Assembly (NCBI GenBank): GCA_021806615.1
Contig: JAJZRB010000002.1
Location: forward strand, 1-54,528
Length of the DNA stretch: 54,528 nt
DNA from: a bacterium
GTDB lineage: Bacteria; Patescibacteriota; Patescibacteriia; Patescibacteriales; UBA12465
Reading direction: 5' to 3'
Position numbers and translations under genes: made by a program. Of this stretch, positions 18,756 to 21,137 are shown piece after piece (position 1 is the first letter of the stretch; each line of letters begins with the position of its first letter). The notes under the pieces were generated by a model. That model ran no database searches. It was not told the origin of the DNA and worked only from the letters and a program-made list of their open reading frames with translations.

Positions 18756-19646
18756 ATGAAAGTCGCGGTCTTAGGTCCGATCGCCAAAGACTATGTCACG
18801 ATAGACGGCCGGCGCTCGATCCAAATAGGCGGCATACCTTACTATGTCGCTTTAGCGCTCCAAGCTCTGGGAACCGAGGAAGTCGCTCCTTATGTTAGTT
18901 GCGGCCCAGAAGATAGAAATTGGGTCCAAGATAATTTTTCCGGATTAAACCTTAAATTTCTATCGGCGCGTAAGACAATAGAATCGTATATAAGTTACTC
19001 GGCTTCTGATCCGGACACTAGAGACAGCAATATCAAGTCATATCCTAATACGATCGAAGCGGAGACTAGATTGCTCCAAGAACTGGAAAAATTCGATCAT
19101 ATCATCCTCGGTCCGTTATTCCATGACGATATTTCCTTCGAACTGTTTGAAAGGCTGAAGCATAAACTGTTAGCCATGGATAATTTCGGCTTGTTTACTT
19201 ATAACGAAAACGGGCGGATGATCAGGAAAAACCCGGAAAATTTACATCGGGTCCTGCCATTTTTGAATTATTTATTTTTAGACAAGAGCGAGGCCTTTTT
19301 TGCCAGCGGATACGAAAATATTAAAGAAGCCGGCCGCTTTTTACAAGCCAAGGGTCTTGCTAATATGATTATTACTGAAGGTTCGCAGGGTTCGCACCTC
19401 TTTGTCGGTCCTGATTACTATAAGATTCCGTCTTTCCCGCCGCGCCAAATCGCCGACACGACTGGCGCCGGCGATACCTATATGGCGGCTTTTATCAGGG
19501 CGACGGAATTATTTGATGATCCGGACGAACAGGGCCGTTTTGCCGCCATGGTCGCGACCATGTCTTTAGAGAATAAGGGAGCATTCCGAGAGAACCTAGA
19601 GAAAGTCTTAGAACGCTTGGGACAGATGAGAGGCTTGAATTTTTAA
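18756..19646 (+). CDS. PfkB-family carbohydrate kinase
   Basis: IQIGGIPYYVALALQALG and DTTGAGDTYMAAFI (anion hole/catalytic Asp). Confidence 0.88.
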   Translation: MKVAVLGPIAKDYVTIDGRRSIQIGGIPYYVALALQALGTEEVAPYVSCGPEDRNWVQDNFSGLNLKFLSARKTIESYISYSASDPDTRDSNIKSYPNTIEAETRLLQELEKFDHIILGPLFHDDISFELFERLKHKLLAMDNFGLFTYNENGRMIRKNPENLHRVLPFLNYLFLDKSEAFFASGYENIKEAGRFLQAKGLANMIITEGSQGSHLFVGPDYYKIPSFPPRQIADTTGAGDTYMAAFIRATELFDDPDEQGRFAAMVATMSLENKGAFRENLEKVLERLGQMRGLNF

Positions 19647-19672
19647 CTTTGCTATGTTATTATAAATTTACT

Positions 19673-19732
19673 ATGAATAACAGTTTCCGGACAATCAGTC
19701 AGGTCTGGTGGACTGCCCATAATATTGGGTAG
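19673..19732 (+). CDS. trpL: Putative trp leader peptide MNNSFRTISQVWWTAHNIG*
   Basis: ATG 19673, tandem TGG codons 19706-19711, TAG 19730-19732; immediately precedes a 4-segment attenuator upstream of trpB. Below the ORF-track length cutoff. Confidence 0.85.
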   Translation: MNNSFRTISQVWWTAHNIG

Positions 19733-19797
19733 TCGTTTTTTGCGTTGGATCCAACTAGTTCAGACTGCCCGATATTTGCTAAGAGGGCAGTTTTTTA
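19711..19797 (+). promoter_or_regulatory. Ribosome-mediated transcription attenuator of trpB
   Basis: Segment 1 gactgccca 19711-19719; segment 2 tgggtagtc 19726-19734; segment 3 gactgccc 19763-19770; segment 4 gggcagt 19785-19791. Pairings 1:2 (9 bp, one G-U), 2:3 (8 bp, one G-U) and 3:4 (7 bp) are mutually exclusive; T-tract 19791-19796. Confidence 0.85.
19764..19797 (+). terminator. Attenuator terminator (3:4 hairpin)
   Basis: actgccc / gggcagt, 14-nt loop, then TTTTTT. Confidence 0.85.
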
Positions 19798-19916
19798 TTA
19801 CCTAAAATCATTTATGTATTACTATTTCCAAAACCGATCGACCGAACGATGGCGACTCGAGCTATCAGTTTAAACGCCAGTCTTTTATTATTAATTAAAG
19901 ATTTAAATTCAATCAT

Positions 19917-21137
19917 ATGAAAAATACTATCGTTAAGACCGCGACTTCCTTTAAGTCGCTGCCGGATCAGGCCGGCTATTTCGGCCAGTATGGCGGCCAG
20001 ATCATCCCGCCGGAATTAAAACCTATCTTTGATGAAATCGCAGAAGAATATCGCCGAGCCCAAGCCGATCCGGCTTTTCGGGCGGAATATGAAAAGCTCC
20101 TGAAAGATTATGTCGGTCGGCCGTCGCCTTTATACTATGCCCGTAACCTCTCGGAAAAGTTAGGCGGCGCCAAAATTTACTTGAAACGCGAAGATTTGAA
20201 CCATACTGGCGCGCATAAGATAAATCATACCCTGGGCGAGGCGCTCTTGGCTAAACGGATGGGGAAGAAAAAATTATTAGCCGAAACCGGCGCCGGCCAG
20301 CACGGCGTAGCGCTGGCGACCGCCGCAGCCTTGGTCGGGATCGATTGCGAAATACATATGGGAGAGATAGATATCGCCAAACAACATCCGAACGTCATCC
20401 GCATGCAGCTTCTCGGCGCGAAAGTCGTGGCAGTCAAGACTGGCGGCCGGTGCCTTAAGGACGCGGTGGACAGCGCTTTCATGGCTTTTATCCAGGACCC
20501 GAAGAATATCTTCTTTGGCATCGGTTCCGTCGTCGGGCCGCATCCTTTCCCGATGATGGTCCGTGATTTCCAGTCCGTTGTCGGACGTGAAGCGCGCGGA
20601 CAGATATTAGAAGATGCGGGCCGTTTGCCAGACTATCTTATCGCCTGCGTCGGCGGAGGCTCGAATGCTATCGGCCTCTTTCATGAATTTTTAGACGATA
20701 AAGAGGTTAAGATGGTGGGCGTGGAGCCGAGCGGCCGGAGCTTCAAGCCGGGCGAAAACGCCGCGACCCTGACTTTGGGCCAGCCGGGCAATATCCACGG
20801 CATGTTTACCTATCTGCTCCAAGATGAGAAAGGAGAGCCGCTGCCAGTCCACTCTATTGCCTCCGGGTTAGATTATCCCGGCGTCGGGCCGGCCCACTCC
20901 GACCTGAAAGATAAAGGGCGGGTTAGCTATGAGGTGGCAAGCGATGAAGAGGCTCTCCAGGCTTTTCAAGATTTATCCCGGATAGAGGGCATCATACCGG
21001 CTTTAGAGAGCTCTCACGCCTTAGCCTATGCTTCTAAATTAGCGCCTGCATTAAGCCCGGATAAGATTATGATCGTCAACCTTTCCGGAAGAGGCGACAA
21101 AGACATAGACTATGTCGCTGAGAGACTGGGGATGTAG
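19917..21137 (+). CDS. trpB: Tryptophan synthase beta chain
   Basis: [33 protein letters not shown] (PLP Lys), [42 protein letters not shown]. Confidence 0.96.

Follow-up and report, generated by a model that had tools for sequence, protein, structure and literature searches.

A putative ribosome-mediated attenuator and a second conserved mini-ORF precede standalone trpB in Patescibacteria

In Patescibacteria, whose genomes are tiny, few regulators have been described. The trpB gene studied here lies in a stretch of 54,528 nucleotides (contig JAJZRB010000002.1, positions 1 to 54,528, hereafter "the window"). In agreement with the original prediction, which had assigned the DNA to a CPR-type genome, the window belongs to an 847 kb Patescibacteria genome with Candidatus Falkowbacteria and Komeilibacteria as closest named relatives. 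The gene itself (19917..21137, forward strand) encodes the beta subunit of tryptophan synthase (TIGR00263, 561.8 bits with a cut-off of 392), and the proposed leader is indeed located upstream of it. TrpB joins indole and serine to form tryptophan. The partner gene trpA (PF00290) was not found in the window genome or in 39 relatives, with 14 of 14 control genomes positive. Hence, trpB stands alone, and the known reaction of its product implies indole salvage. The protein contains no Trp residue, nor does any of the 41 standalone TrpBs that were examined, and it can therefore be made during Trp starvation. Since Trp is likewise absent from TrpB across most other phyla (56 of 61), this is no special adaptation. 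In the TrpB tree, the Patescibacteria standalone TrpBs formed no single supported clade (support of 0.165 at the common node), and we therefore make no claim about the number of transfers of trpB or of its switch. With a probability of roughly 93%, we propose that the element preceding this gene is a ribosome-mediated transcription attenuator of the trpL type.

Competing helices and promoter of the trpB leader

The element, located on the forward strand, starts with a trpL-like leader peptide ORF, MNNSFRTISQVWWTAHNIG* (19673..19732; ATG at 19673, TAG at 19730-19732), whose tandem Trp codons TGG TGG (19706..19711) are the candidate sensor. Segment 1 (GACTGCCCA, 19711..19719) is complementary to segment 2 (TGGGTAGTC, 19726-19734), which encloses the stop codon. 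Segment 2 can alternatively pair with segment 3 (GACTGCCC, 19763-19770; element 19763..19775), in which case its 5' side extends to 19722. This 2:3 helix is the putative antiterminator, while pairing of segment 3 with segment 4 (GGGCAGT, 19785-19791) yields an intrinsic terminator with a conserved T-run (19791-19796). The peptide, the coordinates and the pairings 1:2, 2:3 and 3:4 of the original prediction are all directly readable in the DNA, as are the stop codon within segment 2 and the T-run following segment 4. Solely the statement that segment 1 begins at the second Trp codon had to be refined: position 19711 is right, but it is the last base of that codon. By eye, GGATCCAACTAGT, which is situated in the loop that separates segment 2 from segment 3, looks like the polylinker of a cloning vector.

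The leader region folds with a minimum free energy of -45.7 kcal/mol as compared to -32.1 kcal/mol in dinucleotide shuffles (z -3.5), and none of 200 shuffles was as good. Evaluated separately, the helices have energies of -16.3 (1:2), -13.3 (3:4) and -17.9 kcal/mol (2:3). The full conformations are almost equal in energy, i.e. -29.6 for 1:2 plus 3:4 and -29.2 for 2:3 nested in a 1:4 pairing, which is what a switch needs. A search of the window with Rfam returned zero family matches, Trp_leader and T-box included, and Trp_leader was absent even at E<=10. The element would work like a trp leader, yet it is outside the Rfam Trp_leader model.

The trpB/trpB2 loci that we surveyed are a sample of Patescibacteria. 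Leaders with in-frame Trp codons were detected at the same place upstream of trpB in 35 cases, 28 of which carry WW or WWW (TGGTGG), while a single TGG is confined to seven related leaders. The peptides end in WWTAHNIG, WWTTHNIG, WWTAHISG, WWTTHICG, WWSAHYCRR, WWTTSLWR, WWKDFKGWRSL and others. The residues preceding the Trp codons are not conserved (pN/pS about 0.85 for the N-terminus of the first leader), in line with a leader in which the Trp codons alone are important. In 34 of the 35 leaders a W codon is present at nt 28-43, and the commonest distance to the stop codon is 24 nt, which fits masking of segment 1 or segment 2 by the ribosome.

For 27 of these leaders a plain, unconstrained MAFFT alignment (A2) was used to look for complementary columns, with no structure imposed beforehand. 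Three helices scored best, 2:3, 3:4 and 1:2, and they are mutually exclusive. Helix 2:3 was paired in 86% of the cells, and 23 cells had changed on both sides (mean of 8.7 in shuffles, a control that ignores relatedness); its covariation was 0.470 as compared to 0.280 when shuffled, a score reached by none of 500 shuffles. Helix 3:4 was 83% paired; both sides had changed in 29 cells, as compared to a mean of 10.4 in shuffles, and 7 of 8 pairs showed compensatory changes. Helix 1:2 is weaker than the other two and poor at some loci, but with 73% pairing it still exceeded its slid controls (31-48%), and 22 cells had changed on both sides (shuffled mean 10.9). The slid controls, with 28-53% pairing overall, and the competition of three helices are a stronger argument than the shuffles. 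In addition, the 2:3 duplex ranked in the best 5% of 200 shuffles for 25 of 34 leaders, where fewer than two were expected. Automatic terminator calls failed at four loci (L027, L028, L037, L106), of which the first three still align well in A2. An additional terminator composed of the 1:2 hairpin and a following U-run is at most a possibility, as T content past the stop codon hardly exceeds that of the remaining linker (0.54 versus 0.49; TTTT in 15/28).

The original prediction had named compensatory changes in all three helices and retention of the Trp codons in CPR leaders as its own check, and both were found. Altogether, 35 homologous leaders, three covarying and mutually exclusive helices and the link to trpB support its reading as a ribosome-mediated trp attenuator.

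The position of the promoter suggests how ribosomes may enter this leader. A -35 box (TTGAAT, 19635-19640), a 17-nt spacer and a -10 box (TATTAT, 19658-19663) form a predicted promoter at 19635..19663 on the forward strand. Transcription is expected to start about 7 nt past the -10 box, so that the transcript would begin on or close to the leader ATG, in the window within about 3 nt of it. This promoter is imperfect, with 9/12 matches and a gap of 9 nt rather than 6 nt between -10 box and ATG. Sigma-70-like promoters (at least 8/12 matches) ending 5-9 nt before the ATG are present at 27 of the 35 leaders, with a gap of exactly 6 nt in 20 of 35, as compared to 2.6% in the same scan over all ATGs of the window. 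Among 53 genes of the window a comparable promoter placement was seen in only one, and a Shine-Dalgarno-like 4-mer at only 4 of the 53 gene starts. Judged from promoter placement, the leader mRNA is probably leaderless. The leaderless layout, along with the 4/53 Shine-Dalgarno-like starts, provides a testable handle on translation initiation in this phylum.

The helices and Trp codons, the fact that both are conserved, and the association with trpB are all read from sequence, and from these we infer that switching would proceed as follows. The transcript would begin with the leader ATG or a few bases away from it, and the ribosome would load directly onto the 5' end. When charged tRNA-Trp is scarce, the ribosome would stall at TGG TGG and cover segment 1, so that segment 2 pairs with segment 3 and RNA polymerase continues into trpB. 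When it is plentiful, the ribosome would reach the UAG codon and cover segment 2, allowing formation of the 3:4 terminator. If no ribosome is loaded, 1:2 and 3:4 would form and transcription would stop.

A second conserved mini-ORF between terminator and trpB

Between the terminator and trpB, a further mini-ORF, MYYYFQNRSTERWRLELSV*, is present (19814..19873, forward strand), designated uORF2. Its counterparts comprise 14-34 codons and share the consensus MxxYFYNRxTxxWR with the core F-x-N-[RKH]-x-T-x-x-W-[RQ]. They occur at most standalone trpB loci, including those that carry a T-box-like element and no attenuator. The pN/pS ratio is 0.51 in frame as compared to 1.29 and 0.92 in the wrong frames, indicating that the peptide is under protein-level constraint; the set was first picked by a motif containing the Trp, and its conservation figures are biased accordingly. 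A profile of these peptides (A1), run against 384 genomes of the class, matched below 1e-4 only at places before trpB or trpB2. The non-orthologous trpB2 is preceded by uORF2 at three loci (L155, L160, L162), none of which contributed to the profile, and these cases therefore provide independent confirmation. The downstream genes of L155 and L162 pass TIGR01415, and the L160 gene resembles them on visual inspection; 5' of uORF2 there is a T-box-like element at L160 and a WW leader at L162. No match reached 0.01 in 25 genomes of other phyla, and the peptides had no Pfam or NCBIfam match. Two further profile matches (G281, G442) lie inside frames that by eye look ftsZ-like and secA-like and were taken as chance.

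The Trp codon of uORF2 (19850-19852 in the window) is the only one from the terminator to the end of trpB. As all 41 standalone TrpBs lack Trp, the invariant Trp of uORF2 represents the sole Trp codon of the read-through trpB mRNA. Together with the constraint on the peptide, and with its recurrence behind attenuator or T-box and ahead of trpB1 as well as trpB2, this could mean that uORF2 is the main control, its nascent peptide or single Trp codon stalling ribosomes and thereby setting trpB translation, with the attenuator being secondary. However, uORF2 was not found at seven loci that keep the attenuator (L007, L008, L018, L031, L035, L110, L121), and the interval between uORF2 and trpB varies from 4 to 214 nt and has no conserved RNA structure. 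A second attenuator within this interval was searched for by comparing folding with shuffles and rejected (z between -1.8 and +2.0, with most values positive or close to zero). A short hairpin past the uORF2 Trp codon, seen by eye (for example CGAT...ATCG at L002 and L009), was likewise discarded as not conserved. We therefore regard uORF2 as an unlikely candidate for the main control.

We favor the attenuator as the main switch, after which uORF2 would be made only upon read-through and probably adds a translational layer. Tentatively, and at somewhat less than even odds, uORF2 may represent a new class of Trp-related regulatory peptide, whose nascent chain or lone Trp codon would set translation of trpB or trpB2 after read-through. 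If so, indole salvage in Patescibacteria would be controlled in two stages, in a mix-and-match fashion. Alternatives are reinitiation feeding ribosomes to trpB, known as a general idea (PMC4833913), or a free-standing microprotein. A purely conceptual parallel is TnaC, the tryptophan-sensing arrest peptide of the E. coli tna operon (PMC8429421), in that a short peptide with one key Trp precedes a gene of Trp metabolism; there is no evident sequence likeness. As a candidate sensor or arrest peptide, uORF2 can be assayed in vitro. At one locus (L003, identical to L016), uORF2 and trpB share one reading frame with no stop codon between them, so that uORF2 may extend the N-terminus of this TrpB.

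Interchange with T-boxes and specificity for standalone trpB

The position of the attenuator can be occupied by a different switch. T-boxes are recognised tRNA-sensing switches. T-box-like leaders (RF00230) precede trpB or trpB2 at L009, L010, L011, L012 and L160, with scores of 35-55 bits as compared to a gathering score of 93, and are probably divergent T-boxes that are missed by the Rfam cut-off. Like the attenuator, they combine a switch upstream of a Trp gene with a terminator and are followed by the same uORF2 in related genomes. In contrast to the attenuator, a T-box senses uncharged tRNA directly and without a leader peptide. That attenuator and T-box replace each other ahead of an unchanging uORF2 is an unusual natural swap of regulatory parts.

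These cases, along with relatives that carry a trpR-like gene upstream of trpB (L031, L032, L035, L111), could be taken to mean that the window trpB, too, is controlled by a tRNA- or protein-binding element, i.e. T-box, TRAP or a TrpR operator, rather than by ribosome stalling. This is very unlikely, because the window has neither a T-box match nor a T-box motif, no trpR motif is present within 1.5 kb upstream, and neither TRAP nor TrpR would call for in-frame Trp codons that keep a fixed distance from segment 2. Even less credible is the idea that the WW ORF is a chance frame and the hairpin merely terminates the upstream PfkB-family gene (18756-19646), whose stop codon does lie 117 nt ahead of the terminator, since a simple terminator has no need of 1:2 or 2:3 pairing and since leader, Trp codons and helices persist before trpB at loci where the PfkB gene is not beside the leader (one distant homologue is found elsewhere in L028).

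Returning to the attenuator, its distribution points to trpB as the target. The PfkB-family, phosphatase-like and SWEET-like neighbours of the window trpB do not adjoin trpB elsewhere; as judged from these gene neighbourhoods, the leader goes with trpB and the upstream gene is not conserved. Among 38 distinct usable standalone trpB loci (at least 63% identity to the window TrpB and enough upstream sequence; duplicates of one genome removed by hand), a W leader is present at 31, a T-box-like element at 4, and neither of them at 3. No W leader occurred at any of the 20 loci that have a TrpA motif close by. A covariance model trained on A2, i.e. on 27 leaders including that of the window, matched the whole window genome at a single place with E<=0.01, namely its own training locus (19673-19799, E 9e-14). 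In the 384 genomes of the class, matches below about 1e-6 were mostly trpB leaders; weaker ones were trusted only in the presence of both a W-rich leader and a Trp gene. Among the new loci, WW leaders precede trpB2 at L195 and L202, and a WWW leader lies upstream of trpS at L191.

Relation to known attenuators and to other leaders

Attenuation of trp genes is a textbook mechanism, and the Yanofsky model of the E. coli trp attenuator comprises four segments, tandem Trp codons and a stop codon in segment 2. All of these are present in the window as well. The E. coli leader differs in that it has a 5' UTR with a Shine-Dalgarno sequence and precedes trpEDCBA, while the window element has no match to Rfam Trp_leader.

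Leaderless trpL genes are already known from Sinorhizobium (PMC7298713) and Streptomyces (PMC8079986), and the layout is therefore no new principle. In Sinorhizobium meliloti, trpLE(G) has a leaderless mRNA with its 5' end at the ATG, as is predicted for the window leader, and shares the Trp codons and the choice between antiterminator and terminator; however, it controls anthranilate synthase, and trans activity is an additional property of both its small RNA and its peptide (PMC7298713). The original prediction had compared the leader peptide to actinobacterial ones of the WWWTAHPAAH type, and such a peptide is real: Streptomyces lividans trpL1 encodes MFAHSTRNWWWTAHPAAH*, an ORF reported as leaderless upstream of trpE (PMC8079986), and belongs to an attenuator class predicted in PMC1262725. 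It agrees with the window leader in tandem Trp codons followed by T-A-H, competing hairpins and a U-rich terminator, and its leaderless start parallels the one that is probable here. It differs in that trpL1 controls trpE instead of a standalone trpB and belongs to another phylum, and a second conserved mini-ORF is not mentioned in the descriptions consulted. The "WTAH" likeness is no proof of common descent, as these codons double as segment 1 of the hairpin. In the actinobacterium Leucobacter (L094), a similar and apparently leaderless ORF, MRIANQWWTA*, precedes a trpB with no TrpA motif nearby.

Our literature search, for which subscription papers and preprints were outside coverage, returned nothing relevant on attenuation or leader peptides in Patescibacteria/CPR. 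As far as we have seen, the phylum-wide and probably leaderless attenuator on standalone trpB, its interchange with T-boxes and the constant second peptide are new. A conserved attenuator implies that transcription and translation are coupled so tightly in Patescibacteria that charged tRNA-Trp can be sensed. It also implies that a lone trpB salvages indole as part of a regulated response to Trp starvation, which bears on the amino acid supply of these mostly host-dependent cells.

Several leaders and elements at other genes were seen along the way. A SAM riboswitch (RF00162) is located downstream of a Patescibacteria trpB (L021:4787-4898). At L191 (reverse complement, 1501 onwards), a WWW leader, MKTKFNQINSWWWTLRFKS*, with terminator is followed by a small ORF and trpS, encoding tryptophanyl-tRNA synthetase. 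At L187 and L197, a trpR-like frame, a short leader of the NSTWLWTV type and a terminator precede a GNAT-like gene, which is also the downstream gene at L203; Trp control of a non-biosynthetic gene is possible at these three loci. Finally, at L204 (reverse complement, 1501 onwards) a leader peptide with clustered Arg codons, MKQILINNNVRRSRHSCESWLA*, probably leaderless, is found together with a terminator before an argG-like gene (argininosuccinate synthase), a possible arginine attenuator in Patescibacteria.
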